Assembly (NCBI GenBank): GCA_005772825.1
Contig: SXIP01000138.1
Span: 1 to 59,312, forward strand
Direction of reading: 5' to 3'
Length of the DNA stretch: 59,312 bases
DNA from: Methylococcaceae bacterium
GTDB lineage: Bacteria; Pseudomonadota; Gammaproteobacteria; Methylococcales; Methylomonadaceae
Shown piece after piece: positions 23,692 through 44,895 of this stretch. The notes beneath the pieces were generated by a model that was not told where the DNA came from, ran no database searches, and saw only the letters and a list, made by a program, of their open reading frames with translations. Position 1 is the first letter of the stretch, and each line of letters starts with the position of its first letter. Made by a program: the position numbers and the translations under genes.

Positions 23692-25354
23692 AAATGAATA
23701 TTCCGAAAAATTAGCTAAGCTAAGTGCGTTGCGCGCCGACTTTGTCGCCGCACTGCCGGATCGAATAAGCGCTCTCGCGGCCGGGTGGCGGGCTGTACAA
23801 GCCGCCGGTAGTTGGGAAAATGACCACGCTGAATTGACCCGATTGGTCCATTCAATAGTCGGTTCAGCCGGTACCTTCGGTTACCACCGTTTGGGTGAAG
23901 TGGCGCGGGAGCTTGAACAATTGTTGGTTTGGCTGTCTCAGGCGCCTGATGGCCTGTTTTCGCCGAAAAAAACAAGGGTTGACGATTTGATCGGCATAAT
24001 GGGTAATCTGGTTCTGTCGAAAGAGGCTATTTACTGGGGACTATCGGCCGATATTGCAACTAACGGTACGTATGACAATAACAACCACCGTGTCGTATTG
24101 ATTGAAGACGATGCCTTCGTTGCCGAAGATTTGGCAACCCAATTACGTATGTTCGGTTGGGAGGTCAATGCTTTTTGCAATGCCACGGATGCTCTCAGCG
24201 CCATGACTGAGTCGGAACCACCGGCGGTGATTATTGATGTCATGTTGCCGGAAGGCCCGATGGCCGGCATCGAGCTGATACAGCAATTTCAATCCCGCCG
24301 GCACATCACCATACCGCATGTGGTGCTGTCCAGTCGTAATGACTGGGAATCGCGGCTGGCGGCCGCCCGCACAGGAGCTGCCGCCTATTTGGTTAAGCCG
24401 GTCGATATTTCGGCATTGGAAGAGCACCTGGACCGTATCACCAGTCACCGTTCGCCGGAGCCTTACAGAGTCTTAGTGGTGGACGACGACAGCCTGTTGG
24501 CGGAGTATTACGCCGGGATACTGTCGGCGGCGGGCATGGATGTGATTGCAATATCGGAGCCTTGCAAACTGCTTTTCGCTATAGCGGAACACCGTCCGGA
24601 AATTATTCTGATGGATATTTATATGCCGGAATGCAGCGGCATCGAAGCGCTGAAAGTTATCCGTCAAGATTCTCAATTTGACAGCCTGCCGGTTGTCTTC
24701 CTGTCTACAGAATCGGATCGCAGCCAACAGCAAAGCGCGATAAGAACGGGGGCCGAGGATTTTTTGCAAAAACCGGTTTCAGAGTTAGATCTTATAGTGA
24801 CCGTTAGTGTCCGTACCGAGCGTTTCCGTTCCTTGAACAAGCTCATCCGGCAGGACAGCTTGACCGGGCTGCTTAATCACATTGCCTTTAAGTTACGGTT
24901 GGAAGCCGAAATAGACCGGAGCCTGCGTTCACATGAACTGCTGTCTGTGGCGATGCTGGATATCGATAATTTCAAACACATTAATGATACCCATGGGCAT
25001 CCTCAGGGTGATCGCGTCATCAAGAGCCTGGCGCAACTGTTGCATAAACGGCTGCGTAAATCGGACATCATCGGTCGCTACGGCGGTGAGGAATTCGTCA
25101 TCGCCATGCCCACTACATCGCCCTCATTGGCAGTCACTATCATGGACGAATTGCGTGACATGTTTGGAAAATTGCGCTTTGAAACCTCACAAGGTGAATT
25201 TGTCTGCACTTTCAGCGGCGGGGTAAGCAGCATTCCGCCGCAGGTAAGTCCGATAAAGCTGATCAAACAAGCCGATGAAGCGCTCTATCAAGCCAAAAAT
25301 ATGGGCCGAAATCGAATCGAGCTGTATAAAACCACGGAACCGGGTATGCCATGA
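23684..25354 (+). CDS. Hpt-REC-REC-GGDEF diguanylate cyclase
   Basis: The 556-residue protein (ATG at 23684 preferred to an in-frame TTG at 23678) has an Hpt helix bundle with His56 in LVHSIVGSAGTFG, receiver 1 (136-255, IIDVMLPEG), receiver 2 (263-380, ILMDIYMPECSG) and a GGDEF domain (388-550) with the active signature RYGGEEF near 467. RKSD five residues before GGEEF is an RxxD inhibitory site, so product inhibition by c-di-GMP is expected. It should make c-di-GMP in response to phosphorelay input from the kinase upstream. c-di-GMP commonly switches on exopolymer export, and the polymer-type gene cluster starts 191 bases downstream; a link is an inference. Confidence 0.93.
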   Translation: MNENEYSEKLAKLSALRADFVAALPDRISALAAGWRAVQAAGSWENDHAELTRLVHSIVGSAGTFGYHRLGEVARELEQLLVWLSQAPDGLFSPKKTRVDDLIGIMGNLVLSKEAIYWGLSADIATNGTYDNNNHRVVLIEDDAFVAEDLATQLRMFGWEVNAFCNATDALSAMTESEPPAVIIDVMLPEGPMAGIELIQQFQSRRHITIPHVVLSSRNDWESRLAAARTGAAAYLVKPVDISALEEHLDRITSHRSPEPYRVLVVDDDSLLAEYYAGILSAAGMDVIAISEPCKLLFAIAEHRPEIILMDIYMPECSGIEALKVIRQDSQFDSLPVVFLSTESDRSQQQSAIRTGAEDFLQKPVSELDLIVTVSVRTERFRSLNKLIRQDSLTGLLNHIAFKLRLEAEIDRSLRSHELLSVAMLDIDNFKHINDTHGHPQGDRVIKSLAQLLHKRLRKSDIIGRYGGEEFVIAMPTTSPSLAVTIMDELRDMFGKLRFETSQGEFVCTFSGGVSSIPPQVSPIKLIKQADEALYQAKNMGRNRIELYKTTEPGMP

Positions 25355-28257: not shown

Positions 28258-28640
28258 TTGGGACAGATAATCAACAAAGACGGATATTGCTTATTGACGA
28301 TGATATCTTCATGATTCGCTTGCTGACATTGTTTTTAGAGAAATCGGCATACCGGATTATTACCGCCGGCAACGGTAAAGACGGCATGCGTATTCTTGAA
28401 GAACAGCCGATTGACCTGATTGTTCTTGATTTGATGATGCCGGAAATGGACGGCCTGGTGTTTTTACGGTGGCTGCGTCAGGAAGCCAAGGCCACGTTGC
28501 CGACATTGGTTTTGACGAGCATGACCGAGAACGGTATTGAACAACAAGTCCTGGCGACAGGGGCGACCGCTATCCTCTATAAGCCGATTAAGCCTGCTGC
28601 TTTAGTCGCTAAAATCGAACAATTATTACACGACGCATGA
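28254..28640 (+). CDS. Single-domain response regulator of the CapBC-like cluster
   Basis: This 128-residue CheY-like receiver has the acidic cluster ILLIDDDIFM, phosphorylation site IVLDLMMPEMDG, and switch/Lys residues in VLTSMT and LYKPIKP. It has no output domain. Its start overlaps the sensor stop by 4 bases and its own stop is one base before the GTG start of the CapC-like gene, so all are one transcript. It probably relays the sensor's state by binding a partner, such as the export machinery. Confidence 0.92.
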   Translation: MIGTDNQQRRILLIDDDIFMIRLLTLFLEKSAYRIITAGNGKDGMRILEEQPIDLIVLDLMMPEMDGLVFLRWLRQEAKATLPTLVLTSMTENGIEQQVLATGATAILYKPIKPAALVAKIEQLLHDA

Positions 28641-28641
28641 C

Positions 28642-31600
28642 GTGGATTTATTTCCCCTAGCTATTTTTCCGCAAGGCAGTTTATCCGATTCCATCATCCC
28701 GGTGGTTTGGGTGGGCATGTCGGTGGTGTGTTTTTTTAACCTGCGCTTGGGTTGGGTATTGTCCGGCCTGGTTGTCCCCGGTTATCTGGTGCCGTTGATA
28801 TTGATAAAACCCTGGGCGGCCGGGGTGATTCTGATCGAAGGTTTTCTAACCTATTTTCTGGTCTGGTTTTTATCCGAATATTTATCGCGCCGGGCGCAGT
28901 GGTGTAATTTTTTTGGCCGTGACCGTTTTTTTGCGTTGGTGTTGTGCAGTATCGTCGTGCGCTTGGTCTTTGACGGCTGGCTGCTGCCGGAATTCGGCGC
29001 CTGGGCGACCGCCTATTGGCGCATTGCTTTCGATTACCGCAATAACCTGCACAGTTTCGGCCTCATCATTGTCTCGTTGATTGCCAACCAATTCTGGAAG
29101 ACGGGCTGGGTCAAAGGCTTGATACCGTTAATTGTCACGTTGACCGTGACCTTGCTGATCGTGCGTTTGGGCCTTATGACGCTGACCAATTTCAACCTGA
29201 GCAGTATCAGCTATTTATACGAGGAAATGGCCACCTCGATTCTGGCGTCCCCTAAAGCCTATATCATCCTGGTGCTAACCTCGTTTTTGGCGTCGCGCAT
29301 GAATTTGTATTACGGCTGGGATTTTAACGGTATCCTGATTCCGTCACTGCTGGCCTTGCAATGGTATCAGCCGGTAAAAATAGCCGCGACGGTAGTGGAA
29401 TCCTGCCTTATTTTAGGATTGGCGACATTGCTGCTGAAAACGCCGTTTTTAAGCAAAATGACGATAGAAGGCGCGCGAAAATTGCTGTTATTTTTTAATG
29501 TCAGTTTTGCTTACAAAATTCTGTTGGGTTATGTCATCGTGATGTGGCTTCCCACATTAAAGGTCACTGACTATTTTGGTTTTGGTTATTTGTTGTCCAC
29601 ATTGATGGCTGTCAAAATCCATGACAAAGCGATTTTCGCCCGATTAACCCGCGCCACGCTGCAAACTTCATTAACCGCCGTCATCGTCGCCAATCTGCTG
29701 GGTTTTGGTCTGACGCTGGTGCCGGTTTCCAAGCTCTTCAGCGAATCGGAAGTGGCGCTTAAGCCGGGTGCGCTATCGAGGCCCAATGCTGCAGAACAAG
29801 AGGATTTAGAATCCCTTTTGCGCCAGGAACAGATGGAACTCTACCAAACTAAATTAACCGATCAATTCGTTCCGCTTTTACCCGCCGAAATTGACCTGTT
29901 TACTCGCGCCTTGGTACAGATTCAGGATTATTTAAACACGCGCGATGAACAAAAGTTACAAGACGCCGCCGCTTATTTGGAAAAGGTCAATTATCGACTG
30001 GAGCTGGTCAATAACAAGCGATATATATACCTGCACGAGCAACTGCCGTTGCGCGGTTGGGGTGTTTATGTCTTTGATACCGAGGCTCCGTTCGGAGCTT
30101 GCATTGGAAATTCCGGAGCCATTGGATGAGCCGGGCGTTTTTGATGCCGGGGTGGGTTTGTTCAACAGCTTCGCGACGCGCAGTTTAGCCATTTCGGGCA
30201 GCGGTCATAAAGAAAGCTACATGGAGTCATCCAGGGACGTGTTAAAAAACCAGCATACATTTTTTCAGGTATTCCATCGCGTCATTAATCGGCATAACTG
30301 TTTACAACTTCGCCTGTTTACAGCTGAAATGGCGCGGCAACTGACAGGAATTCGCCGTGAAGGAGACGCCCTGGCTATCAACAACCTGACGTCCGGCTTA
30401 TGGATTAAAGAGCATTTGCCCGAAGGACTGGATTTGTCCCAATTAAAACAAGTGTTAAACCATTACGAAATCAATTGGACGGAGCCACCGTTTCCTAATC
30501 TGCAAAGGGAGTCCTCTCGCTATGGCTTTGCCGAATTAATTCTGACCCAGCAAGATTTACGGAAAGTATTGTTCAGCCCGTTGCTGTTGACTTCAAAATT
30601 GACGGTGCAGACCATTGCGCAGACCTTAAGTATTGAAGGTTATTTACAGGAATGGCTTTTAAACCGTAAGCAATCCATTGCGCCTAAGGGCAGTCGGCTT
30701 TATCAGCCGCCAAAGCAAGAGCAACTGTTGTTTTTCGACGAACAGGTACTGACGCCTTTACTGAACGTGATTCGCCGCGCCACCCTCGACTCGTCCGGTA
30801 TATCCGGCGATAGCGAAGAGTTGCTAAGGATTGTGCAGGCCGCCGATATTGTCGGCTATCAGTTAGTCAAATATCGCGACGAACTGACCCGTAGGGAGTA
30901 TCTGGTGCTTGCCGAAAAGGACGACAAACCGCTTAAGTATTGGGGCATTTACGTGTTCAGGTTGGGAGAAGGACGACCTTATGTGGTGCAGGTGCCCCGT
31001 CCCTTATTTGAAGTCAACAGCTTTGAATATGGCGTCGCCTTGTTTGAACGCTTGCAAGCCCGGGCTTTAATGATAGGAACCACGCATCCTCAGGCCAATT
31101 TTGACGGCAGCGCCGACTTGATTAATCCCAATAATAAATTCAGTCTCTTTAACTTAGTCAGTCAAGCGTTATTACGCGAAGCACACGATGCCGAATTGAT
31201 GCTGGTCAATACCCGTGCTTTTGCCTATAAGGCGGATAAGCCCGCTTCGGAAGCGGACGTAATTTTTTCTTCGTCAGAGGGCGTGGTTTCGCGCGGGCAA
31301 TTGGGACGATTGCCGCAGGAATTGCTGACCAAGCTCGAAAATGACGGCATGTCGGTGCAGTTAATCGACGGTTCCGAGCAAACCAGCGGCTATGAAGTCG
31401 GCAGCACCGCACAAGCCTCCTATCTGGCGGCTACGGCAAATAAAAGCTTTGCGATTTTATGGTTGTCGCCATCGGTCAGGTCGGCCTTCAGGCAACAGAG
31501 CGAGAATCTGTTGCAAGCCGCGCAGTTCAACGCCTTTACTATTCCCAGCGTAGAACAGGATTTAGGCGTCTATCTGCAACAGCATCGGGCATTCCGCTCC

Positions 31601-31909
31601 AAGGTTGGTTTGGATGATCATTTTCGCACCTTGCTGACGCACTATATAGCCGAGCAGGATGTGTTGCGTTTGCAGCAGGTGGTGGACAGTGCCGCCGATA
31701 ACCGCTACTCATTGCTGCGGCTGATTGACCGTAACAGTAAACAGGCGCTGCTGCTAATCCATGATGCAGCCGGTATTCCGCTGGCGGTGGCTAATCTTAC
31801 CGCGAAAAATCAGGCCACCCGTGAGGTCGACTTGACCGTGCCGTTGCCAAAACAAGCCATCGATTTCATTAATCAACGCAAGGCCTGGTGGTACAGGCGG
31901 GCGGGTTGA
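28642..31909 (+). pseudogene. Tandem CapC/PgsC-like membrane protein fused to two inactive amidohydrolase-like domains; one frameshift
   Basis: Starts at a GTG directly after the receiver gene. CapC copy 1 (about 10-180) has GLVVPGYL, GRDRFFALVL and SLIANQFWKTG, a close match to Bacillus CapC/PgsC, the membrane partner of poly-gamma-glutamate synthesis. CapC copy 2 (about 190-365) has ILIPSLLALQWYQP and DYFGFGYLLS. Two related domains of about 280 residues follow (WGVYVF and WGIYVF mark the same place in each), resembling the hydrolase encoded downstream but without its catalytic residues. The frame breaks near 30091: dropping one T from CCGTTCGG joins FDTEAPSELALEIPEP and gives a single protein of about 1088 residues. 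The shift may be a sequence error, programmed, or a real lesion. Without it the gene ends at 30129. Confidence 0.8.
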
Positions 31910-34386
31910 TGCGGCGATACCGGCGGATTGTTTGGCTGTTGCTTGTGCTTGGGACCGGTTTATGGCTGTCCTTGCCTGTTTTTTTTGCACATGTACAGCA
32001 ATGGCTTAAGCATTTGCAAACCGATGACTGGAATACCTTATCGGCAACCGTGCGCAATAGTTTGAGCTATCCTGTTACAGATCGGCAATGGCTGAGCTTT
32101 GCGATTCCGGAAGGCAGCCAACAACTGCGCATCATCACGAATGCCCATATTCAGCCGTCGCAGGCCCTGACCCCAAACCCCGACTGGACTTATGCGCTGC
32201 GTTACGAATTGCTTGACCATAACGGTGTCGTGTTGACCAACGGCCTGTATCGCCACCATAGCACGTTAACCGCTTACAAGGATCAGAGCGGCAAACTTGT
32301 TTACAATAATTATTATGCCAATCGGAATATACTGCCTTTAGACGGTCGCTTGATATTGCTGGGGATGCAACCCGTCAAGGCGGCGCGTTTTTTGCGCGTT
32401 CGCTTGGAAGCCGGGGACGGTGTTATTAAAGAGGCGGCGTTGCGCGTCTATATCCCCACTAAAATATCCGAACATCAACTGGCCAATGTGTGGCTGCGCA
32501 TGAGTCAGGAGCAAAAGGACAATTTGGCTGGAAACAGCATTTATCCCGCTTCGTTACTGTCGGATGAAGAAAAGGCCAATCTTTTGAAGCATCAATGGCA
32601 AGCTGTCGGGCCTCAAGGTATTGACGGCAAAGACTACCAAACCATGACGTTATATACGCGCGATGATAAAGAGATCGGCGCTTTCGGAGATGATAAACCC
32701 CTGTTGGCTGCCGGTTTACAGGCCGATGCCATGCACTACGGCGTCATTGCACTGCCTGAAGGGGGAGGGCGGTTAAGTCTGGCTTTTAAGGCATTGGACG
32801 GCTCGGCATTAACTAGCGCCGTGGCTGCCGACCTGCAATGGTTTGGCCGCGGCTCAGACCGGCGCTGGCGGCACAACGCCGTTTGGACGGCAAGCTCAAT
32901 CCGTCTGGATTACCGTCTGGACGGCGGCCTGCTGGTGATTAAACCGACATCGCCGATTATCATTAATGCCTATCTAAGCACGGCTACAGAAGCCGAGCGC
33001 GATATTAGCGATGCTTCGACAGCGATTAAAACCTATCTTGCGGACGCCGGCGTTGACTATAACATTGTCCATTACCAACAGCAGCCCACCGCATTGCGCG
33101 TCGATGTGCGCAGGCTTCTGATTGCCGGGGCAACGCCGTTACCGCAAAGCCTTCACTACCAATGCTTAAACGCCCGGCAGCAAGTCGTTGCCGATGGCGA
33201 ATTAAGCGCGTTGGCGCAAGCGTCGCTGTTTGATCGCGTCGGCGCTATCATCGAGCCGCAAAACATCAGCGATCCGGTCAGTTATTATTTTAACTTACCT
33301 GCCGGGGTTACCGGATTTCGCCTGCTGGCCAATACGCCCGATTTTCTGGTTAACGCTTATAATCAACCGGTTGGTTTTACAAAACGGCAGAAGGTGCCGG
33401 AAGATGCCTATATCGCCACTGACACGCAAGACGCACGATTGACGTGGTTTCCTTTGCGGGCGCAAAATGATGACAGCCTGGCAAGACAATTGCGAGTACA
33501 GTGGCTAAACGGGCAATACCGTCCGCCTGAAGACGATCCTGACGTGTTGGCGGGGCGGTATGTCTGGCGGGATTATATTCCACAGGGTGAGACGGCGGCG
33601 CGTTACCTGTTGACCGAATACAGCGGCGATGCGCCGCGTACCGATGCGTTGGCGAGTGTGTATTGCGCTTTGCCCGTCAACCAGGATCTCTCCGTGTCGC
33701 TTGCGGCATTAACCGGATTACGCAGCGTGTCGCCGGAACTCATTTATTTGCGTGACGATGGCGGCCCGTTTAGTGCCGAACTGTGGATGCACCGGCACAA
33801 GGTGCTGGCTTTGAACTTAATGGGGCGGCAAGGAATTATACGTTTGCCTGAAACGGCTTTGGGTTATCGGTCGCTACGCTTGAACACGGATAGCGGAGGG
33901 CGTTGGTTGATGAATTATCAGGCCCAATGTCATGGACAGCGTTACTTGAAACGGCGCGTGTTTGCCCTGAATGCCGGGGCCGGTCTGGATTTTGTTGTAC
34001 AGCACGGCGCTATTGATGAAGTATTGTCGGCGCGCTGGTATTCTCCGCTTAATACCGTCGAGCGCTCGCAAATTCAAGTGGACATAGACGCGATGACAAC
34101 CGTCCCGCCTGCGGTCGTGTCGACAACCTGGACAAACCGAAAACAGCTATACGACATCCGGCCCTTGCCGAGCAAAGCCATGCCTGTTCTGCACACTCAG
34201 GGACAAGCATTGAGCAATGGCGAACTGTTTGCCATCCCTCTTAACAGTGATTTGCCTGCCGGTGACTACCGTATACACATTGCTCTGGCTAAAGGGTCGC
34301 CGGGCTATGTCATGTTATCGCAGACCTTGCCGGGCGTACACGATCAACGCCGTTTTTATCTGGAGAGTGGGCTTGAAATACAATAA
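31909..34386 (+). CDS. Membrane-anchored periplasmic beta-rich protein of the CapBC-like cluster
   Basis: Start at 31909, where ATG overlaps the upstream TGA; an in-frame ATG 21 bases earlier lies inside the previous gene. The 825-residue product has one N-terminal helix (IVWLLLVLGTGLWLSLPVFF) and is otherwise periplasmic. It is rich in predicted beta strands and repeats a module with the pattern FxxPxGxxxLRL: SFAIPEGSQQLRI (about 65) and YFNLPAGVTGFRLL (about 464). The same pattern occurs in the 1102-residue and outer-membrane proteins of this cluster, hinting at a shared beta sandwich. I do not recognise a named family. A role in carrying or guiding the polymer through the periplasm is an inference. 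Confidence 0.65.
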   Translation: MRRYRRIVWLLLVLGTGLWLSLPVFFAHVQQWLKHLQTDDWNTLSATVRNSLSYPVTDRQWLSFAIPEGSQQLRIITNAHIQPSQALTPNPDWTYALRYELLDHNGVVLTNGLYRHHSTLTAYKDQSGKLVYNNYYANRNILPLDGRLILLGMQPVKAARFLRVRLEAGDGVIKEAALRVYIPTKISEHQLANVWLRMSQEQKDNLAGNSIYPASLLSDEEKANLLKHQWQAVGPQGIDGKDYQTMTLYTRDDKEIGAFGDDKPLLAAGLQADAMHYGVIALPEGGGRLSLAFKALDGSALTSAVAADLQWFGRGSDRRWRHNAVWTASSIRLDYRLDGGLLVIKPTSPIIINAYLSTATEAERDISDASTAIKTYLADAGVDYNIVHYQQQPTALRVDVRRLLIAGATPLPQSLHYQCLNARQQVVADGELSALAQASLFDRVGAIIEPQNISDPVSYYFNLPAGVTGFRLLANTPDFLVNAYNQPVGFTKRQKVPEDAYIATDTQDARLTWFPLRAQNDDSLARQLRVQWLNGQYRPPEDDPDVLAGRYVWRDYIPQGETAARYLLTEYSGDAPRTDALASVYCALPVNQDLSVSLAALTGLRSVSPELIYLRDDGGPFSAELWMHRHKVLALNLMGRQGIIRLPETALGYRSLRLNTDSGGRWLMNYQAQCHGQRYLKRRVFALNAGAGLDFVVQHGAIDEVLSARWYSPLNTVERSQIQVDIDAMTTVPPAVVSTTWTNRKQLYDIRPLPSKAMPVLHTQGQALSNGELFAIPLNSDLPAGDYRIHIALAKGSPGYVMLSQTLPGVHDQRRFYLESGLEIQ

Positions 34387-35191
34387 ATGGTGTTTTTTAC
34401 CGGTGATATGGATGATAGGGTCGGTACAGGCTAATGATTTGGATACCGGACTGAAACGTGCGTCCGGCAAAGCGCTTGTCCATACAGCGACAGCGGACGA
34501 ATTACAAGCGTTTGAAGACGCGCTGGAGACTGTCTTCAAGGGCGTCGGTACCGCCGATTGGCAGCGCTTGGGGATGCAGGCGTCCAGCCTTCAGGATTTC
34601 ACCATCCTGCAAGAACTGCCGACCGCAAAACAAGGGCGCGGTTTTTTTGCCGTCAATTCGCGTGCGTCTCACAACCGGTTATTACAGGCTCCTCATGCCG
34701 ATTCGGATTTGTACACAGGCAAGATTGCCAGTCGTTTGTTTTTGGAAGGCGGGTTCAAAGCTGCGCAATGGAACACAGTCAAGCGTGACATCAGCGATAT
34801 GGCGCATACTCCCAATACTTATTGGCAAGCCTTTACACAGGCTTTCGCCAGACAGTATCCCGACGGCAAAATTATCCAGTTGCACGGTTTTGAGCAAGAC
34901 CGGCGCAAAACCAATGCAGGCGAAGCCAGCGACATGATTTTGAGCGCCGGGCATAATTTGCCGCCGTTGTGGCTGCAACAAACCGCTGCTTGCTTAAAAC
35001 AGCGCTTTCCCGCACGCGTGAGCTTGTATCAGTTGGATGTCAAAGAATTGGGCGGCACCACCAATGTACAAGGACAATTGTTGCGTAGCCTCGGACATGA
35101 CGGTTTTCTGCATATTGAAATGAGTAAAAATATGCGTAAAGAATTGCTTGATAATGCCGATGCACGAAAGCTTTTTATGACCTGTTTATGA
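34373..35191 (+). CDS. Exported amidohydrolase-like protein (N-formylglutamate amidohydrolase / poly-glutamate hydrolase fold)
   Basis: TTG at 34373 is preferred: GGAG lies 7 bases before it and a signal peptide follows at once (KYNKWCFLPVIWMIGSVQA). The 272-residue product is thus periplasmic. Likely metal or catalytic residues sit in three motifs: PHADSD (His108, Asp110, Asp112), IIQLHGFE (His171) and GFLHIEMS (His247, Glu249), followed by NMRKEL, as in N-formylglutamate amidohydrolase and phage poly-gamma-glutamate hydrolase relatives. Two inactive copies appear at the end of the CapC-like protein. A plausible role is trimming or releasing a gamma-glutamyl-type polymer, like CapD/PgdS in Gram-positives or AlgL in alginate export. 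It overlaps both neighbouring genes. Confidence 0.6.
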   Translation: MKYNKWCFLPVIWMIGSVQANDLDTGLKRASGKALVHTATADELQAFEDALETVFKGVGTADWQRLGMQASSLQDFTILQELPTAKQGRGFFAVNSRASHNRLLQAPHADSDLYTGKIASRLFLEGGFKAAQWNTVKRDISDMAHTPNTYWQAFTQAFARQYPDGKIIQLHGFEQDRRKTNAGEASDMILSAGHNLPPLWLQQTAACLKQRFPARVSLYQLDVKELGGTTNVQGQLLRSLGHDGFLHIEMSKNMRKELLDNADARKLFMTCL

Positions 35192-38100
35192 GCCTTGTCC
35201 GCAACCCAAACAGCCCGGCTATAAAGTCCCAAAACGGCGGGGCGCGGAGCAAAACCACCGTTGCCGTGGCTGCGATGATAGTGAGTCTCCGCTTCATGAC
35301 TCCGGCCTGCGCCGACATCGACGCCATGCAGTTGCGCTTGTTGGATGCCTACAGCCAGGATTTGCGCTGGTACAATATCGAATCCGATCCCGAATGGCTC
35401 AATGGCGTTAAGCCCGATTACGATAAAGACTGGCGCATGCACCGGGTTATTCTGGCTCCGCGCCAGCAAACCACCGTTATCCTGCCCGCCTATGAAAGTT
35501 TGCGTTTGCACAATCCGAAACAACGCTTAAGCGGTGACGAGCTGGATGTCTTGGTTTCCAACGGCACCGGCTTGGCGGTCAAACAAGCCCTGCGACAATC
35601 CTCTGACGGGCATTCATTAGTGTTATCGCCCAACTCGGCAACACCGTTGCTGGTTCATATTGACCGGCCGGGTTTTTACACAGGCAATTTCGCCATTGCG
35701 CTATTTGTCTCGCGCATGGTGCCGTTAAACACTATTGCGCCGTACCGTATCCTGCTGGGATCGTCTGCGCCCCGGTGTTTGCTGGCGCAAAAACCGTTTG
35801 TTTTACCTGAACTCTATCAGCAATTGTCAGCCTGGGAAAAGCAAAGCTTTGAGGTAACGGGACCGGTACGGCTGATGCTGAAAAACCGCTTGCACTATGA
35901 ATCTAAAGCGGGCGAGCCGACCCAGGATTACCGTATCCGGTATTGGCTGGATGACGCCAAAGCCCAAGCGCTGGATTTTTCCACCAGCGTCGAAACCAGG
36001 CGCATCATTACAGTGAATGCGGACATCGTGGTGACCGGACGTGAAGAACGGGGCTACCTGGAAATTCCCGCCGGACGGCATAAACTGGTATTACAGGCGG
36101 ATAGGGATGTGTATCTGCAAGTGTTGGCGCAAACCGAACAGGATTATTTGTTCGGCAATTTGAACAAGCCTCGAGTCAGCGTTGATGAGATTCGCAGGCA
36201 AGGCTTGCTGCCGACCACTGAATTGCCGTTGCAAGCAAAAACGGCAGTGCGAACGGCTCATGACAATCGCCGTCAGGCAGGCGGCATGGCGGCGAGTAAC
36301 AGCTTCCGCGAGGCCGCTTTACAGCGCAGGGACTATCCCGCAGGCTTGGCGGAGACCGAACAATTGCAGAGCTTGAGCAGTTTTTATCGCGATTTGTTAC
36401 CCGGTAAAAAAGCTTCCCCAGTCGCACAATTTATGGCGTATTTTTTAGCGGAGACGTTAGCCGATGTTAACCGGACGCAAGGCAATGCTGTGCTAGCCGA
36501 TCAGCATTTATCAGCCGCCTTAAAGCGAGTCAGCAGCGCCTACTTTACCGTCCTGCCCGGCACAAAGGCAGTGGAGGCCAATGAATACACCTTGCCGACA
36601 CAACAAAGCACGGGGCAATTGCGCCTGATCATCGACAAGCGCGACTGCGTAGAACGTGTGTTGCGTATACAAATTGACCGTCAACCGGCCGGAGAGATTC
36701 GCTTGCGTTGCGATATCGCGCTTAATCCCGAAGCATTTGCGTCCTCAATGGCCAAAACCGCCTTGCTTGGCTTGCAACAAGAGCACGATGCATTGAAGGT
36801 CGGTCTGCCGCCGTTTTTTTTCGGGCTCAATCAAGCCCCGGCGCCGTTTATCGCGGCGGCGGTTTACGAATTGCCTGTTCCTAAAGACGCGCGCACTGTC
36901 ACGCTCCGCCAAGTAGCCGGGCCCGATGCTCCGCCTGTCAATGCAGCGCTACAGTATCGCGCCGCGAAAGCCTTTGTATCGTCCGAACACAGTTATCTGG
37001 CGCGCTTACTCGAAGCGCGGGACAAGCGCCCGTTTGCAACGTTTCTCCAAAACCTGGCTGCGGGGACGGATAGTCCGATTCAGCTAAAGGTGCTCGGTTC
37101 ACCTTCTGAACCGCTTCCAAACGAATGGGTGCCTTTACAACGCTTATTACAAAGCGAATACCGCTTGTATAAGGCCTCAGTAATCGCCGATCCAACGGAA
37201 CAGGCGACATTAGCGGGCGATGTACAGGTCGTGGACGATGAAATCGCCCTGGCCGACAGCGCGGAAAAACGCGGGCAATGGCTGGAAGCGTTGGAACACC
37301 GGGCGAAGGTCGTCAACTCTTCAAGCGGACCTGCGCGTCACCGGGCGCAATTGGCGCAGGCCAATGATTTAAGCAAGTTGGGTGAAGATTATTTAGCGGA
37401 AACCCTACGCCGGTATTTGTCTCTGTATGCCGATGCTGGCGTGGCGGAATCGGCCGTTATTCAGTTAAGCGAACAATATCGGGCGCAAAACAATAACGCG
37501 GCCTTGCAAACGCTCGCTGCGGCGATGCTCGTCCATCGTCCCACGGTTGAACACCGTCGTTTATTGTTAAATGCCTTAATGAAAAACGGTGAATACCGTT
37601 TTGCCCTATTGTTGGGTTTGAGTTTTTTCGAACCGGCTGCCGAACAAGCTATTGAACGAGTGCCGCTGGAGGCGATGTTAACAGCCGCCTATCAATTGGA
37701 ATGGTGGGAAACTTATGACCGGCTACAGAACCAATTACCGCCTGCCCGACGCGCCTTCTGGCAGGGCTTGAAAGCCCAGCAACACGGCGATTATAAGGCC
37801 GCTCTGAAGGCGTGGTCGGCAGTTGAATTACAGCCCTGGCATGATTATTTACAACAAGGTTTACAGTTACGCGATCGCTTGATGCAGGTTACCGAGCAAA
37901 ACGCGGTGTCGATCTATAAACAATGGTCTGACTGGCAACAACGATATCCCGGCTCAACAACCTGGCAAAATGCTTTATGGCATGTTAAGGATTACGCGGG
38001 CGGCGATAGCTATTATGCGGTCGAGCGCGATGTTTATTCGCAGGCCGTTAGGGCCACTGTAGAGCGGCCTGTGGTTTTGGGTGTCATGGGGCCGGTCACG

Positions 38101-38496
38101 TTGAATTTGCAAATACGGCCGTTACATCGATCCTCACAAGCGGATTCCGCAATCGACGGTTGGCTGCAAATTAACGATAATAATGACACCACCCGTTATC
38201 CATTCAGTAATAACCTGCCCGCACAAGGGCTTAGGGTAACCGGCGCCGATGACTTACAAGTCGGCAATGTCGTCAGCCTTGTTTATCAGGTTGGGCAAGG
38301 CTGGCATGAAGTGCATCTGAGTTCCGAGCAAGCGCCGTTGTCTATCGGCATTCAGGAGCAACGCCCTGAATTGGCGTTAAGCGTACTGCCGGTGTTACAC
38401 CCGGACAGTTTTGCCGGGATGACCTCTATCGGTCGGGCCGAGAAGGTGCATACCGCTGATAAATCCGTTTTTAAATGGCTTAGCGCATGGAAATAA
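35188..38496 (+). CDS. Very large periplasmic TPR-like protein of the CapBC-like cluster
   Basis: This 1102-residue protein has an N-terminal signal (basic stretch, TTVAVAAMIVSLRF, cleavage after TPACA). Residues 45-350 are beta-rich and include LEIPAGRHKLVLQADR (about 290), the module shared with two other cluster proteins. The middle is mixed. Residues about 690-960 are helical repeats that look TPR-like (LAETLRRYLSLYADAG, LQTLAAAMLVHRP, LLLNALMKNGEYRFAL, KAQQHGDYKAALKAW). TPR periplasmic proteins such as AlgK or the TPR half of PgaA scaffold polysaccharide export, which suggests a scaffold role here. It overlaps the hydrolase gene by 4 bases and the barrel gene by 10. Confidence 0.65.
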   Translation: MSLVRNPNSPAIKSQNGGARSKTTVAVAAMIVSLRFMTPACADIDAMQLRLLDAYSQDLRWYNIESDPEWLNGVKPDYDKDWRMHRVILAPRQQTTVILPAYESLRLHNPKQRLSGDELDVLVSNGTGLAVKQALRQSSDGHSLVLSPNSATPLLVHIDRPGFYTGNFAIALFVSRMVPLNTIAPYRILLGSSAPRCLLAQKPFVLPELYQQLSAWEKQSFEVTGPVRLMLKNRLHYESKAGEPTQDYRIRYWLDDAKAQALDFSTSVETRRIITVNADIVVTGREERGYLEIPAGRHKLVLQADRDVYLQVLAQTEQDYLFGNLNKPRVSVDEIRRQGLLPTTELPLQAKTAVRTAHDNRRQAGGMAASNSFREAALQRRDYPAGLAETEQLQSLSSFYRDLLPGKKASPVAQFMAYFLAETLADVNRTQGNAVLADQHLSAALKRVSSAYFTVLPGTKAVEANEYTLPTQQSTGQLRLIIDKRDCVERVLRIQIDRQPAGEIRLRCDIALNPEAFASSMAKTALLGLQQEHDALKVGLPPFFFGLNQAPAPFIAAAVYELPVPKDARTVTLRQVAGPDAPPVNAALQYRAAKAFVSSEHSYLARLLEARDKRPFATFLQNLAAGTDSPIQLKVLGSPSEPLPNEWVPLQRLLQSEYRLYKASVIADPTEQATLAGDVQVVDDEIALADSAEKRGQWLEALEHRAKVVNSSSGPARHRAQLAQANDLSKLGEDYLAETLRRYLSLYADAGVAESAVIQLSEQYRAQNNNAALQTLAAAMLVHRPTVEHRRLLLNALMKNGEYRFALLLGLSFFEPAAEQAIERVPLEAMLTAAYQLEWWETYDRLQNQLPPARRAFWQGLKAQQHGDYKAALKAWSAVELQPWHDYLQQGLQLRDRLMQVTEQNAVSIYKQWSDWQQRYPGSTTWQNALWHVKDYAGGDSYYAVERDVYSQAVRATVERPVVLGVMGPVTLNLQIRPLHRSSQADSAIDGWLQINDNNDTTRYPFSNNLPAQGLRVTGADDLQVGNVVSLVYQVGQGWHEVHLSSEQAPLSIGIQEQRPELALSVLPVLHPDSFAGMTSIGRAEKVHTADKSVFKWLSAWK

Positions 38497-40691
38497 CGCC
38501 TGCCCGAACCGGGACGCCTTGCCGTCAAATAGCCACCCTGTTGACAATGCCGCTATTACTGGTCGGTTGTTCCGTTTATGATTTTAAGCAAGCGCTTGCT
38601 CCGGCCAATAGCGCTTTATTGATACATCAGGACGGCCCGCATAATAGGCTGAGCATGCCTGTTGTGCTTGACTCGGCGCCACAGTATTTGAGCGGCGTAC
38701 GCGTTAACCCCGAACAAATTCCGGTAACGCCTTCCCGCTCATTGGCTGTAGCAACGGATTTAAGTGAATCTCTTACGCCGGTTAGCAGCCTGGAACAGGC
38801 GCAGAAAACGCTGATTCGCTACCTGGCGGCTGTCGAAGAACAGCCCGAACGGGTTGAAAAACTGATAGCCGATGCCGAGCAGTTGGCGCAACGCTATAGC
38901 GATGACGCATTGATGCAATCCTTGTTGCAACGCTTGTTGCGCTACAGCGACTGGCAACCGGTGAATTCGATTATCAATAATGCGGGCATTGATTTTGTCA
39001 GTTTTAACAGTTGGCAACCGGAAAGCCCGTTTATCCGAACCCGTCGTGCTTTATTACCGCCGGTGGCGGATAATGAGCATGTGATCTTTGGCGATCAGCG
39101 CCTGGTTTTACTGATGACCAACACCGCAGCGGTCGCGCTGTCCATAGGTGCCCGCCTGGATGATATACCTTTTTTGCCTGCATCGCCGACGACCCTGATC
39201 TATCAATTGGATGGCGGCGTCGGTCGGCAGGTCGAACTGGTTGATAATGCCGATTGGCTGCGCTTTACCGTCATCGTTCCGGCAGGCGAACATGCGCTCC
39301 GACTTTATCAGCAACAGCCGGTCGGTAATCAGTACGTAAAATTGAAATTTGATGAAAATTCGACCGATTTGGCCGTAGCGCAGGAGCGCCCTTATTTTAT
39401 CAGTACGGCGGCCGCCCCGTTGACGTTTTACAGCCAGGGGCCGTCGAGTTTGCGCATTGATGAACTGGACGACGGGCTTGTCTCCTATCGCTATCAGAAT
39501 GTTCCCGAGGGTTGGCATACCATCAGTTTGCCGCCGCCCGCAGGAAAACCGCGCAGTTTGTTGCGCGTCAGTCAGCGGATTGCCAACTTGCAACCGAAAC
39601 CACTGCGTAACCGGATCATACAGCGCAGCTTATTTCCCGTTCCGCCTGCTGTATCGGTGCCTAAAGCGCATACCGTCAGCGACAAGGTAGAGCTGGTCGA
39701 TGCCTTTGCATTAGGTCGGCAAGAAGACGGCACTTGGAGTTCGGGTATTGATTATATGCGTCGAAATAACAAGCAGGAAAGCGGCTCAACGTTGCCTTTA
39801 GAGCAATTTGCCCAGTATCGGATGAATTACCGCTATTTCGACGAACCGCACGCCGCATACTGGAATTCGCAGGGTCTGTTTCGTATTCGGGAATATGGCG
39901 GCCCTACCTTTGGCTTCAATGAATCGGTTTATTACAACCCCGAGTGGTTGCCGTTTAATGTGCATTCCAGCGCCAAAGTGTTCACACAAGCGCCGCATGA
40001 TGATTGGGAAGCCTTGGCGCAGTGGGATATATCCATTGCCCAGGCTTACAATCTGCATCCGAAAACGCGCATCATTCCCGGATTATCCTTCTTTGCACGG
40101 GTGATGACTCTGCACGACAGCCCATTGGACTCAAGTGCCCCCGATTTTAACGTCAGAGCCCGGGAAATCGATCAAGATGTTTATACACCCTATAAGGCGC
40201 AACACTCGGCGGGATTGACCCCGGCATTATCGCTGGAGCACCGGCCCTGGCTGGATACGGTTTGGTCGGTTAAAGGTGCGGTGCAGTCTTATGAAGACCT
40301 CAATTTTACCAATCCCGATCACTATAGAAGCGAATTCCATTGGCAACAATTACTGGGTAGTGTGGTGTTGGATGCGTCTTATCGCACGGCATTTTACCAG
40401 GCAAACGGGGTCGACAGGCCGCATGCCGTTACCCGCAGTTTCGCTGAACTGGAATTGAATTGGCAACACTGGACCCGTCATCAAAACCGCATCGAGGTCT
40501 CCGCGCAGTACGGCTACGACATGCAACGCGACGCCCACCTTGCCACGTTGTCATTGACCTATCACTTTGGCGAAGGACGCGGACTCAGGGATTTTGCCCC
40601 CCATGAAATTGATTTTCGCGATATTCGGCAACGACAGTCCGGCAACGCCGATAATAATGTGATGCGCGATGCCGGTGCTTCCGCGCAGTAA
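38487..40691 (+). CDS. Outer-membrane lipoprotein with C-terminal beta-barrel, putative polymer exit channel
   Basis: This 734-residue protein starts with a lipoprotein signal and lipobox LVGC (Cys28). Residues 100-160 are helical (AQKTLIRYLAAVEEQPERVE). Residues 240-370 carry the FTVIVPAGEHALRL module shared with other cluster proteins. From about 420 on, alternating hydrophobic and polar strands rich in Tyr/Trp appear (QYRMNYRYFDEPHAAYW, FGFNESVYYNPEW, LATLSLTYHFGEG), typical of an outer-membrane barrel of 10 or more strands; 40 polar residues follow the last strand. Position and build suggest the outer-membrane exit for the polymer, comparable to AlgE or PgaA. The family is not one I can name. 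Confidence 0.65.
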   Translation: MEITPARTGTPCRQIATLLTMPLLLVGCSVYDFKQALAPANSALLIHQDGPHNRLSMPVVLDSAPQYLSGVRVNPEQIPVTPSRSLAVATDLSESLTPVSSLEQAQKTLIRYLAAVEEQPERVEKLIADAEQLAQRYSDDALMQSLLQRLLRYSDWQPVNSIINNAGIDFVSFNSWQPESPFIRTRRALLPPVADNEHVIFGDQRLVLLMTNTAAVALSIGARLDDIPFLPASPTTLIYQLDGGVGRQVELVDNADWLRFTVIVPAGEHALRLYQQQPVGNQYVKLKFDENSTDLAVAQERPYFISTAAAPLTFYSQGPSSLRIDELDDGLVSYRYQNVPEGWHTISLPPPAGKPRSLLRVSQRIANLQPKPLRNRIIQRSLFPVPPAVSVPKAHTVSDKVELVDAFALGRQEDGTWSSGIDYMRRNNKQESGSTLPLEQFAQYRMNYRYFDEPHAAYWNSQGLFRIREYGGPTFGFNESVYYNPEWLPFNVHSSAKVFTQAPHDDWEALAQWDISIAQAYNLHPKTRIIPGLSFFARVMTLHDSPLDSSAPDFNVRAREIDQDVYTPYKAQHSAGLTPALSLEHRPWLDTVWSVKGAVQSYEDLNFTNPDHYRSEFHWQQLLGSVVLDASYRTAFYQANGVDRPHAVTRSFAELELNWQHWTRHQNRIEVSAQYGYDMQRDAHLATLSLTYHFGEGRGLRDFAPHEIDFRDIRQRQSGNADNNVMRDAGASAQ

Positions 40692-40716: not shown

Positions 40717-43700
40717 ATGAGCGCGCAAATCTTCAGCCTTAGCCGTCAAGAAATAATCGACTTGCTGGTACGTGGACAGAATCGCTATTGGCAGCAACTG
40801 AATGCCGATTTGCTTGAGCGGTTATGCGCCGACTTTGAATACTGGCCGGAGGCGACTTTTGCCGAATCGGAACAAGACCGCAGTGAGTTAGGGCGAAAGG
40901 CCCAGCATCTGGTCAGTTTTATGCGCTACGATATCGGCCAGATTGTCGCCGGTTTGGCAACCCTGGAAAATCAATTCGGCACCTACAGTAATCGCTATAC
41001 CAAAGCCCGGACTGACGAGGATAAAAAACTGCACATTCTGGATTACGCCAAGACATTAGGCGCCACCGATCACGAGTTGCGTCAAGACGAGCGGGCCTTT
41101 AAACGCTGGTTTGGACATGATGCCGTCAGCGACCGCTACCAACGTCGGCACTTGGAAACAGAGCGCTATTTGAGTTTTATTTTGCAGTGCCTAGGTCGAA
41201 TGGCCGCGTTGGTGCTCGCCGAAGACGGCGATATTGTCGGCTATCGGCGCTTATGGCAACGCTTGGCCCTGGAGCCGGTGTTGCAACCTTTATTGGAATA
41301 CAAAGGCGACAAGCGCGTGGTGATCAGTGCGTTTAATGCCTTGTCCGTCGCCTTGCTTGCTGTACCGAAAGATCTACAGCACAGTAGCGTTTCCGAGGCC
41401 GGCTTACGGTTTATTTATCACGCCTGCTTTAAAGGCAGCCAGTCGATCTGGGTGCAATGCGAAGCCTTGAGTTTATTACAAAGCGCATCGCCGCAATCTT
41501 TAAAGGTGGTGCTAGGCAAGCGCCTTAGCTATCCTAAAAACACTGAAGATTTGTTTGTGCGCCGCAAAGTCGTGCAAATCATCGCCGAGCAACTCGCGGT
41601 CGAACCCGAACTGGCAGACTTATATGAATTAGTGCTACAGGACCCTTGTCCGTCGGTGCGGCAAAAGCTGGCCGACATGCTGCCGGAAACCGGTCAGGCC
41701 GTGATGAAGCGCTATTATCCGGCGCTGTTGTTTACCGATGTCGCACCGCCGGTTCGCGCTTCCGCCTTGCTAAGTTTGTTGCCGTTGCTGCAACGCGAGG
41801 AGGGTTTTGATTTGGCCCTGGCGTATTTACAACAAAGCCTGACAACCGAAAAAGAGCGTTTTGTGTTGCGGGTGGGCTTGCATGTCTGCCGCACCGGACT
41901 GGACAAGCTGTTAGCCGCCAACCGGCCTTTCCCCAAAGAGACCTATGTAAACAGTTTATTGCCGGCGCTTAAGGAACTGCACGAAAATCAGGCGTCGCTG
42001 GCGGTGAGACGTTACGCCGCGCAAACCAGCGAATATTTATTGTGTCACGCCGACGAAGACAAACACCGGCGTATTACCAGCCTGGCCCGATTCCTCGATA
42101 CTGTTCCGCCCGGTAAAACCCGGCGCATTCCGAAGTCGCTTTTGACATCGGACGATGCCGAATTAGGACGCTTATTGTCGGTGCTTGCTCAGAACGATTT
42201 CGGTTTCGACATAGAAAATAACCTGTTTGGGCGTTTCGTCACCCGAGGTCATGCTTTCGGATTTCGCATCTGGCGATTTTTGCACGAGTTCCGGCATCCG
42301 TCGCCTGATAAACGCCAGGCCTTCAATCATACGATTGGCCGCTTATTCTGGGGCGACATGCGAGTGCCTTCGGCGATTTTATCCGAGCTTGCCGAAACCA
42401 AAGTGCCCGGTGAACCGTTGTTTATGGATACCGAGGACGGCTGGCGCGGTTATTTGCCGTTAGTTGACGAAGTGATTTCGGCGTTGGCCTTAGGTCGTCA
42501 AAGCAGCTATTTTTACCACAGTGAAGGCATTACCCGACTGCAACCGCCGCGCAATGTATTTACGCGCTGGCGGGCAAGCTGGACGATTACCTGGCGCTTT
42601 GCCGACTATGCACGTCTTAGAAATTGGCAGGAAAAAAGCCAGCAACCGGCGCAAAGTTATCTGAACGCGCTGGCCGAGTTGGGTATTAAAGTGACATTTA
42701 CCGGGTACGAAACCGAAAATCCCCGTTTTCAGTCCGTCGATCCGGCGGTGTTGCGGTTTTTTCCGGCATTTTTCCCGGCGCTGCCCGGCGCGGACCAGGC
42801 GTCATCGCTGTGGACCGATTTTAAAGATTACTTCGTTTCCGTGTATGAAAATTCACTGTATGAATTGGCGATTTTTATGATGGCGGCTGTCGGCTATTTC
42901 ATGGGCAGGAATATTTACCTCTATCGGAAAATAGTCGATGCCAGAAACCGGCTGCCGCTAGTGTTGGGCGGCTGGGGAACCCGCGGCAAGTCCGGTACCG
43001 AGCGCATCAAGGCCGCGTTAATCAATGCCTTGGGACACAGCATCGTGTCCAAAACCACCGGCTGTGAAGCGATGTTTTTGCATGCCCATCCGTTTGGGAC
43101 GCTACGGGAGATGTTTTTATTCAGGCCCTACGACAAAGCGACGATTTGGGAGCAGCACGCGCTGGTTTGTTTAGCCGATAAATTACACTGCGAAGTGTTT
43201 TTATGGGAATGTATGGGTTTAACGCCCTCCTACGTCGACATCCTGCAACGGCAATGGATGCGCGATGACATATCCACTATTACCAACACCTACCCGGATC
43301 ATGAAGATATTCAGGGCCCGGCAGGCGTTAATATTCCGCAAGTAATGACCAATTTTATTCCGCATAACGGCTCGTTGCTGACTACCGAAGAGCAAATGCG
43401 CCCGATTCTGCAAACAGCGGCACGGCAGCGCAACACGCGCTTTAAACCGGTGGGTTGGCTGGAAGCCGGTTTATTGGCGGAAGACGTGTTGGCGCGCTTT
43501 CCCTACGACGAACACCCATTTAATATCGCCCTGGTGCTGGCGTTAGGTGAAGAGTTGGGTATTGATCGCGATTTTGCGATAAAAGAAATGGCCGACCGCG
43601 TGGTTGCCGACATCGGTGTATTGAAAACCTTTCCTCCCGCGCCCTGGCGTAGTCGGCGCCTGGAATTCGTCAACGGCATGTCGGCCAATGAACGCTTCGG

Positions 43701-44895
43701 GTGTTTAAGTAATTGGCAACGTTGCGGTTTCGACCAAATAACGCCGGAACAACATCCCGGCACCTGGATCACCATTGTGGTCAACAATCGCGCCGACCGC
43801 ATTGCGCGCTCGCGGGTGTTTGCCAGCATTATCGTCAAAGACATCAGCTATGACCGTTGCGTGCTGATCGGCAATAATCTGACGGGCTTGGTCAGTTATA
43901 TCAAAGAAGCCTGGGCCGAATGGCGGGACACCATCAGCCTGCAGGCGCTTGACGAAAGCCCCGCCGCTATTGCGCTACGCATGGCGCGACGCTTTCGCAT
44001 CCCGTACACGCAAGCATTGCTGCAGCAACGATTGGGCATCATGTTGAAAGCTCAAAATGAAGCCGTCGATATGGCGGCCGTGCTGGCGTTGAAGGATCAA
44101 CCCGAGGCGTTACGGGCTTATTTATTAGCGGAAAACATTGCCCACCACCAGACCATTATTAACTGTTTTCAGCAAGACACGGCGTTGTTGGCCGGTTATG
44201 AAAATTTCATCAAACAAATCGGTCAGGCAAACGACCAGGTTACGGAAAGCCTGGAAAAAGACTTTCACAACTTGCTCTGGCAATGGTTCGAGCAAAAACT
44301 GGTCGTGGTTGAAGACTATTACGCTACCGGCAATCAAGTCATAGAAACCATAGGCCACGCCACCCCGCCGGGGTTCTATAACAAGATCATGGGTATTCAA
44401 AACATCAAAGGAACAGGGCTGGATTTTGTCTATCGATGGCAAGCATGGGAAACCTGTAGTAAAGCCTGCCGGCAACTCCTCGATCCATCCGCCGCGGAAT
44501 CGGCGCGAGGACTGCGCGCTCTGGCCGCATTTCAGGAACACGGCGTCTTGACCGAAGAAACCGTAACAACAACGTTAACTCAAATGTTTGACTCGTTGAT
44601 TGCCCAAAATGAATATTACCAAGCTGAATTGCGACTGATTAAAGCCACTTTGGAACAGGCTTTAACGCGTTTGGCTAACCAAAATAACCCAAAAACCTCC
44701 GGCAACTCATGGCTAAGTTCTGTTACCAATGTTTTGGAAGCTTTTTTGGATGCCGGAGACGCCGTTAAACGCCGCAAAACCGCCGATCAAATCTATAAAG
44801 ATCTTATTACCGAGCGCATCAGCCACGAACGCGCGGCACTCGAATTACAACGCATCAATAAACGCCAAAAAGGCGGGTGGCTTCAAAAACAATAA
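40717..44895 (+). CDS. CapB/PgsB-type Mur ligase fused to a long helical N-terminal region
   Basis: The 1392-residue protein has three parts. Residues 1-700 are alpha-helical and look HEAT-like in 150-470 (AFNALSVALLAVPK, VLQDPCPSVRQKLADM). One membrane helix follows (713-733). Residues 745-1160 are a CapB/PgsB domain: P-loop GGWGTRGKSG (about 750), VFLWECMGLTPSY, TNTYPDHEDIQGP and FVNGMSANERF...NNRADRIAR, each with a direct counterpart in Bacillus CapB, the ATP-dependent ligase that polymerises glutamate through gamma-amide bonds. Residues 1180-1392 are a helical, coiled-coil-like tail. CapB alone is about 400-460 residues, so two thirds of this protein is new. It is the last gene of the cluster and a terminator follows. 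Confidence 0.88.
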   Translation: MSAQIFSLSRQEIIDLLVRGQNRYWQQLNADLLERLCADFEYWPEATFAESEQDRSELGRKAQHLVSFMRYDIGQIVAGLATLENQFGTYSNRYTKARTDEDKKLHILDYAKTLGATDHELRQDERAFKRWFGHDAVSDRYQRRHLETERYLSFILQCLGRMAALVLAEDGDIVGYRRLWQRLALEPVLQPLLEYKGDKRVVISAFNALSVALLAVPKDLQHSSVSEAGLRFIYHACFKGSQSIWVQCEALSLLQSASPQSLKVVLGKRLSYPKNTEDLFVRRKVVQIIAEQLAVEPELADLYELVLQDPCPSVRQKLADMLPETGQAVMKRYYPALLFTDVAPPVRASALLSLLPLLQREEGFDLALAYLQQSLTTEKERFVLRVGLHVCRTGLDKLLAANRPFPKETYVNSLLPALKELHENQASLAVRRYAAQTSEYLLCHADEDKHRRITSLARFLDTVPPGKTRRIPKSLLTSDDAELGRLLSVLAQNDFGFDIENNLFGRFVTRGHAFGFRIWRFLHEFRHPSPDKRQAFNHTIGRLFWGDMRVPSAILSELAETKVPGEPLFMDTEDGWRGYLPLVDEVISALALGRQSSYFYHSEGITRLQPPRNVFTRWRASWTITWRFADYARLRNWQEKSQQPAQSYLNALAELGIKVTFTGYETENPRFQSVDPAVLRFFPAFFPALPGADQASSLWTDFKDYFVSVYENSLYELAIFMMAAVGYFMGRNIYLYRKIVDARNRLPLVLGGWGTRGKSGTERIKAALINALGHSIVSKTTGCEAMFLHAHPFGTLREMFLFRPYDKATIWEQHALVCLADKLHCEVFLWECMGLTPSYVDILQRQWMRDDISTITNTYPDHEDIQGPAGVNIPQVMTNFIPHNGSLLTTEEQMRPILQTAARQRNTRFKPVGWLEAGLLAEDVLARFPYDEHPFNIALVLALGEELGIDRDFAIKEMADRVVADIGVLKTFPPAPWRSRRLEFVNGMSANERFGCLSNWQRCGFDQITPEQHPGTWITIVVNNRADRIARSRVFASIIVKDISYDRCVLIGNNLTGLVSYIKEAWAEWRDTISLQALDESPAAIALRMARRFRIPYTQALLQQRLGIMLKAQNEAVDMAAVLALKDQPEALRAYLLAENIAHHQTIINCFQQDTALLAGYENFIKQIGQANDQVTESLEKDFHNLLWQWFEQKLVVVEDYYATGNQVIETIGHATPPGFYNKIMGIQNIKGTGLDFVYRWQAWETCSKACRQLLDPSAAESARGLRALAAFQEHGVLTEETVTTTLTQMFDSLIAQNEYYQAELRLIKATLEQALTRLANQNNPKTSGNSWLSSVTNVLEAFLDAGDAVKRRKTADQIYKDLITERISHERAALELQRINKRQKGGWLQKQ

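Follow-up and report, generated by a model that had tools for sequence, protein, structure and literature searches.

A threefold-extended CapB/PgsB-like ligase in a Methylococcaceae bacterium and its probable role in trans-envelope polyamide synthesis and export

Architecture of the long CapB protein

The DNA analysed here (the window) is a stretch of 59,312 nucleotides from a Methylococcaceae bacterium (contig SXIP01000138.1, assembly GCA_005772825.1), and the gene under study encodes a long relative of the ligases CapB and PgsB (long CapB). The open reading frame runs uninterrupted from ATG to stop on the forward strand, gives a product of 1392 amino acids (aa) and is present as a single copy in the source genome. 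The first-pass annotation, made from the sequence alone, had described a CapB ligase extended threefold beyond known CapB/PgsB proteins of 390-460 residues, and this description is borne out: a Mur-ligase core is combined with about 930 extra residues, and the short CapB proteins of the same class have about 405-462 aa. The protein departs from the compact CapB type (about 390-460 aa with a hydrophobic N-terminal helix) both in its length and in the weak hydrophobicity of the corresponding helix. An AlphaFold2 model covers residues 193-1392 (69 sequences; mean predicted local distance difference test score, pLDDT, 86.5; predicted template modelling score 0.84), and the following parts are distinguished.

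40717..44895, + strand: long CapB/PgsB-like ligase, whole open reading frame, 1392 aa, 69 relatives
40717..41310, + strand: residues 1-198, N-terminus, poorly conserved over 1-90 and better over 91-200
41311..42096, + strand: residues 199-460, HEAT-like alpha-solenoid (AlphaFold2; weak HEAT_2/HEAT matches in relatives)
42118..42702, + strand: residues 468-662, conserved alpha/beta domain rich in invariant positions (model and alignment)
42769..42855, + strand: residues 685-713, linker (pLDDT below 50)
42856..42951, + strand: residues 714-745, long, weakly hydrophobic helix placed where short CapB has its N-terminal membrane helix
42958..43956, + strand: residues 748-1080, Mur-ligase ATPase domain with the greater part of the C-terminal domain
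43957..44301, + strand: residues 1081-1195, helical insertion of 115 residues within the ligase C-terminal domain (model and alignment)
44302..44436, + strand: residues 1196-1240, final ligase part with a strand and the QNIKGxG motif
44437..44895, + strand: residues 1241-1392, conserved helical tail (GDAVxRRK...RQKGGW), modelled as long helices

The ligase core was recognized by several comparisons. The NCBIfam PgsB model (TIGR04012, an equivalog) matches residues 740-1076 with 191.3 bits (E 2e-56), under its curated cut-off of 222.7 bits, and a Pfam scan of the protein gave zero families above cut-off. Profile-profile alignment (hhalign) of the core with short CapB of the same class reached an E of 3e-40, and a Foldseek search of the PDB with the model returned MurC, cyanophycin synthetase, folylpolyglutamate synthetase (FolC), pseudomurein ligase and MurT. 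The ligase motifs GTRGKS (P-loop), WECM, NTYPDHED, EHPxNIAL and NNRADR lie within residues 748-1080, and across the 69-70 long CapB proteins the P-loop is present and the Mur-ligase catalytic motifs are invariant or nearly so. The predicted activity is the polymerisation of glutamate through its gamma-carboxyl group. Matches in the PDB to viral capsid proteins (residues 958-1061, E 0.17) were dismissed as chance.

The limits of the domains differ in part from those proposed at first, when the ligase was placed at about residues 745-1160 behind some 700 residues of helical repeats. The ligase starts at about 748, and its end moves to about 1240, because residue 1160 falls inside the helical insertion and the last strand of the C-terminal Rossmann-like domain (1221-1226) and the NIKG motif sit beyond it. 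A weaker second hhalign alignment likewise places the NI(K/H)G C-terminal end of short CapB after the insertion. Structure prediction, suggested by the first-pass annotation as a check, was run on residues 193-1392 and gave a clear alpha-solenoid of successive helices at 199-460, so the helical repeats hold for this segment, but residues 468-662 form a separate alpha/beta domain. The Pfam HEAT_2 match of the window's protein is sub-threshold (12.2 bits against a cut-off of 27.7), and a weak HEAT_2 signal was detected in nine of ten aligned long CapB members. Searches of Pfam, NCBIfam and PDB sequences with the added parts returned no informative family.

Conservation is unevenly distributed along the protein. 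Mean identity between the window's CapB and the 69 relatives is 68% in the ligase core, 59% over residues 1201-1260, 50% over 480-700, 46% in the tail, 43% over 91-200, 35% in the solenoid, 29% in the insertion and 20% over 1-90. In the alpha/beta domain R485, W519, R520, E524, K532, R533, P564, E566 and P567 are among the invariant residues. On this regional pattern, with 50% identity over 480-700, the alpha/beta domain stands out as the best candidate, ligase aside, for a functional interface. The spacing of the parts is also fixed across lineages: the distance from the P-loop to the ligase end is 323-325 aa in all long CapB proteins, that from the ligase end to NIKG is 157 +/- 11 aa, and the tail measures 172 +/- 9 aa.

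A membrane helix had been expected ahead of the ligase. The helix at residues 714-745 does occupy that position, but its hydrophobicity is weak: the median Kyte-Doolittle value over 19 residues is 1.67 in long CapB against 2.3-3.0 in short CapB, barely exceeding the highest value reached elsewhere in these proteins (1.51). Long CapB contains 1.03 cysteines per 100 aa before the helix and 1.07 after it, and the exported barrel and 832-aa proteins encoded in the same operon contain 0.13-0.21. Because of the equal cysteine density and the weakly hydrophobic helix, the parts before and after it are probably both cytosolic, and the helix itself would lie in or on the membrane, or pack on CapC, rather than cross the membrane alone. 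The same two features argue against a periplasmic N-terminal part connected by a single membrane helix to a cytosolic ligase, an arrangement that we rejected.

Distribution and operon partners

A scan of 84,980 GTDB species revealed 345 candidate loci encoding a long CapB relative, which rules out that the protein is unique to the source genome; the best 80 of these loci were analysed at the locus level. The 70 complete long CapB proteins, including that of the window, have a median length of 1398 aa and a near constant architecture, ruling out a gene fusion or assembly artefact as the origin of the long form. Carriers among the best 80 loci, as labelled in database records in which some names of metagenome-assembled genomes may be wrong, include Methylococcales, Thiomargarita/Parabeggiatoa, Nitrosomonas, Thiodiazotropha, Halomonas/Vreelandella, Marinobacter, Legionella and Ramlibacter, together with Alphaproteobacteria, Zetaproteobacteria, Desulfobacterota, Nitrospirota, Planctomycetota, Acidobacteriota and others. 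Full-length long CapB is encoded in 6 of 61 neighbourhood genomes, namely the window's own and five relatives with 61-77% identity. In the Gammaproteobacteria sample the long form is as common as the short one (6 genomes, the window's included, versus 5 of 369), and in 398 genomes of the phylum all seven strong PgsB matches fall in long frames of 1109-1431 aa, none of the genomes reaching the TIGR04012 cut-off. In plasmid records the partial PgsB matches cover the ligase only and no annotated long form was found. Judging from the GTDB, class and phylum scans, the long architecture is common among diderm bacteria. The first-pass annotation had asked whether this might be a common and already described CapB architecture: it is common, and no description of it or of its envelope partners was found in Pfam and the other family libraries or in the open papers searched.

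The long CapB gene is the last of a series of genes on the same strand, which are listed here with the two repeated domains of CapC.

25546..28257, + strand: CHASE2 sensor with a degenerate histidine-kinase region
28254..28640, + strand: stand-alone receiver domain
28642..31909, + strand: CapC-like membrane protein with two PF14102 stretches and a C-terminal extension; frame-split here, one open reading frame of 1082 aa in relatives
29959..30574, + strand: first degenerate hydrolase-like copy in the CapC extension (approximate, spans the frame change; hhalign E 2e-10)
30668..31489, + strand: second degenerate hydrolase-like copy in the CapC extension (approximate; hhalign E 2e-11)
31909..34386, + strand: protein of about 825-832 aa with an N-terminal membrane anchor; in the class sample only alongside long CapB
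34217..35191, + strand: exported protein of about 280 aa, probably a zinc poly-gamma-glutamate hydrolase, with an uncertain start within 34217-34373
35188..38496, + strand: 1102-aa protein with a signal-like N-terminus; most relatives have it joined to the barrel protein
38487..40691, + strand: 734-aa protein with a lipobox-like signal, a beta-sandwich and an outer-membrane beta-barrel (AlphaFold2, Foldseek)

The order in the window is thus CHASE2 sensor, receiver, CapC-like, 832-aa, 280-aa, 1102-aa and 734-aa proteins and CapB, and from CapC to CapB neighbouring genes overlap or lie at most 25 bases apart. Among the 50 loci with at least 9 kb of upstream sequence, the exact order CapC, 832-aa, 280-aa, barrel protein (fused or split) and CapB is kept in 33, and the 832-aa family was found within the locus in 47, CapC in 42, the barrel protein in 42 and the 280-aa family in 41. 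Legionella londiniensis and L. yabuuchiae have the order CapC-832-280-1102-734-CapB and, like the window, encode the barrel protein in two parts. Sulfidibacter, Acanthopleuribacter and Holophagae show the order CapB-sensor-receiver-CapC-832, with the 280-aa and barrel proteins not nearby. Alteripontixanthobacter and Altericroceibacterium carry a shortened system, with a CapC of about 822 aa and a piece of 251-258 aa of the 832-aa protein, and the barrel protein is not nearby. Pfam families above cut-off in the operon are confined to CapC and the sensor/receiver pair.

Profile searches in the 369 class genomes detected the 832-aa and barrel families only in the six long-CapB genomes; both were absent from the five short-CapB genomes and from the other 358. 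The association has a Fisher p of 3e-13, a value in which shared ancestry overstates the independence of the six genomes, which represent four taxonomic families. This co-occurrence is the strongest sign that long CapB belongs with the envelope proteins. It also bears on the earlier suggestion that the additions couple the ligase with export, which gains from finding a conserved envelope set tied to the long and not to the short CapB.

The CapC-like protein matches PF14102 with an E of 1.3e-42 and so provides the CapC/PgsC partner expected of a CapB; its score against NCBIfam TIGR04011 (64 bits) is under the curated cut-off. As both NCBIfam models, TIGR04012 for the long CapB and TIGR04011 for the extended CapC, score below their cut-offs, automatic annotation may miss the system. 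The C-terminal 600 residues of CapC contain two copies of the domain found in the 280-aa protein (hhalign E 2e-11 and 2e-10, about 97%). Both copies lack the PH pair of the zinc site, and for this reason they are predicted to bind rather than cut and are probably inactive. The pattern suggests duplication followed by loss of catalysis, giving polymer-binding modules.

In the 280-aa family itself H112, D116, H175 and E253 are invariant and a cysteine pair is conserved. The gamma-polyglutamate hydrolase PghL uses His41, Glu46, His102 and Glu165 (PMC6506827). The same order of zinc ligands (His, Glu/Asp, His) followed by a catalytic Glu is found in the 280-aa protein with similar spacing, consistent with its being probably a zinc poly-gamma-glutamate hydrolase. 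An identity as N-formylglutamate amidohydrolase was considered and set aside with no profile match, in a comparison whose alignment held three sequences, one of them divergent.

A Pfam scan of the 832-aa protein gave no family. The 1102-aa and 734-aa parts form one protein of about 1680-1950 aa in most relatives and are split in the window. The 734-aa protein starts with a lipobox-like LLLVGC, and its AlphaFold2 model (pLDDT 82.5) shows a beta-sandwich and a beta-barrel at about residues 299-694. OmpG headed the Foldseek ranking and PelB and AlgE were matched as well, which indicates a general likeness to outer-membrane barrels. Pfam TPR families were not detected in two fused barrel proteins, and one weak TPR_14 match was found among 48 barrel-region proteins.

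In none of the relatives whose alignment covers the phospho-acceptor site does the CHASE2 sensor have a histidine there, and two genomes encode a 679-aa version of it without the kinase part; the acidic pocket and the lysine of the receiver are intact. An ordinary phosphorelay from this sensor is doubtful, given the missing phospho-acceptor and the loss of the kinase part, and docking of the ligase to the sensor/receiver pair, also put forward in the first-pass annotation, is correspondingly less likely to serve a plain phosphorelay. Immediately ahead of the operon, positions 23302-25354 hold genes for a receiver and for a PleD-like receiver-GGDEF protein, which may connect the system with cyclic di-GMP.

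A proposed trans-envelope machine and its alternatives

Taken together, the computed features (the open reading frame and its conserved architecture, the ligase motifs, the operon and its co-occurrence, the barrel fold and the domain shared by CapC and the hydrolase) indicate that long CapB is probably the synthase subunit of a diderm machine that makes a polyamide, most likely poly-gamma-glutamate, and exports it across the envelope. From these features we infer what the machine makes, which way the chain travels, which proteins touch one another and what each addition to CapB does. In the cytosol, the Mur-ligase core would extend the chain by glutamate, consuming ATP. The HEAT solenoid, the alpha/beta domain, the ligase insertion and the tail would form a cytosolic scaffold seated on the inner-membrane CapC and the regulators, and the nascent chain would be passed directly into the channel; the most likely task of the added parts is to dock the ligase to CapC, with the receiver as a possible further target. 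On the periplasmic side, the pair of hydrolase-like and probably inactive CapC domains and the anchored 832-aa protein would hold and guide the chain, the 280-aa zinc hydrolase would trim or release it, and the 1102-aa and 734-aa (usually fused) protein would let it leave through the outer-membrane beta-barrel.

Several observations weigh against this machine. The reading frame of capC changes near 30089-30096, where the sequence forms a short inverted repeat without mismatches (GCTCCG TT CGGAGC), while relatives keep one open reading frame of about 1080 aa; the broken CapC frame may mean a non-functional system in this genome or an error in the assembly. The Pfam scans made of the operon proteins gave no match to CapA/PgsA (PGA_cap), a component of the Bacillus complex, and some alphaproteobacterial and acidobacterial loci have no barrel protein nearby. 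The hydrolase is graded as probable because its likeness to PF05908 is marginal (profile-profile E 0.013, a score equalled by 1 of 200 column shuffles); Pfam PF05908 found no match in 17 members of the family. The polymer could also be another polyamide.

The same machine might be at work with the added CapB parts being mainly regulatory, sensing the CHASE2 sensor, the receiver or a second messenger and switching synthesis. A CHASE2-type sensor gene adjoins capB or capC in several carriers, distant ones included and often with a receiver, the receiver keeps its acidic pocket, and the receiver-GGDEF protein is encoded close by in the window. The sensor and receiver are, however, less constant neighbours than CapC and the 832-aa protein, in a set where many loci stop short of the sensor position, and the state of the sensor's phospho-acceptor site and kinase part speaks against this role, which we consider unlikely. 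Less probable still is a Mur-ligase relative that joins a different amino acid or that modifies an envelope polymer, be it peptidoglycan or some other, an idea consistent with a ligase core below the PgsB cut-off and with Foldseek placing MurC and cyanophycin synthetase together. It is opposed by the operon partner, a homologue of CapC (PF14102), and by the neighbouring hydrolase, which resembles gamma-polyglutamate hydrolases; we know of no setting of CapC other than polyglutamate systems.

It appears highly improbable that the cell retains the polymer, inside or on its surface, for storage or osmotic purposes while the envelope genes have another function. Work on lucinid symbionts published in 2024 did place CapB/CapC under storage compounds (PMC11168628), and a Thiodiazotropha lucinid symbiont carries the long CapB in our data. 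Nevertheless, the class sample has no long CapB without the 832-aa and barrel families, and CapC itself bears hydrolase-like domains.

Comparison with known systems

Nearly all work on poly-gamma-glutamate synthesis concerns Bacillus, a genus without an outer membrane. In the openly licensed literature searched, preprints excluded, no outer-membrane export route for polyglutamate in Gram-negative bacteria was described; homologues of PgsB/PgsC were already listed in 250 species of 58 genera (PMC4497714). The system shares with the Bacillus-type PgsBCA(E) the Mur-ligase core with its main motifs, the helix just upstream, NI(K/H)G at the core end and the CapC partner. Unlike Bacillus-type CapB/PgsB, long CapB adds about 700 residues in front, an insertion in the C-terminal domain and a tail of 150 residues, and its helix is weakly hydrophobic. 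CapC also differs (about 1080 aa against about 150 aa in Bacillus-type CapC/PgsC), and the operon, with no CapA seen in its Pfam scans, includes an extra hydrolase, an anchored protein and an outer-membrane barrel.

In the 280-aa protein the residues H, acid, H, N and E..R follow one another as in PghP/PghL (PF05908) and at similar distances, but the protein has no significant Pfam match, forms a family of its own and has two degenerate copies inside CapC. Like cyanophycin synthetase (Foldseek E 1.5e-6), long CapB places a Mur-ligase domain in a large polymer-forming synthase; cyanophycin synthetase contains an ATP-grasp domain and is not known to be accompanied by CapC or envelope genes, whereas long CapB has HEAT-like and alpha/beta parts.

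The closest parallel in logic is synthase-dependent exopolysaccharide secretion (BcsABZC, PgaABCD, AlgK/E, PelB/C), which, as we read it, also combines an inner-membrane synthase or channel, a periplasmic hydrolase and a periplasmic part fused to a barrel; the outer-membrane beta-barrel subunit is supported by the model and by the PelB and AlgE matches. The likeness is one of logic and of general barrel fold, with OmpG ranked first and no sequence homology shown, and the enzyme differs, being a Mur ligase that would make an amide polymer and not a glycosyltransferase. A CapB/CapC-type synthase may thus work in the manner of synthase-dependent secretion while standing outside those polysaccharide families. 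The operon supplies concrete candidate parts for the passage of a polymer across two membranes in diderms: a synthase scaffold, a CapC with hydrolase-like domains, a hydrolase and a barrel. On balance we lean, with some reserve, towards the view that long CapB marks an undescribed and widespread class of trans-envelope polyamide synthases, in which two inactivated hydrolase domains of CapC would serve as polymer-holding modules, an active copy would trim the chain and a dedicated outer-membrane barrel would export it, as a polypeptide counterpart of the secretion of cellulose and poly-N-acetylglucosamine.

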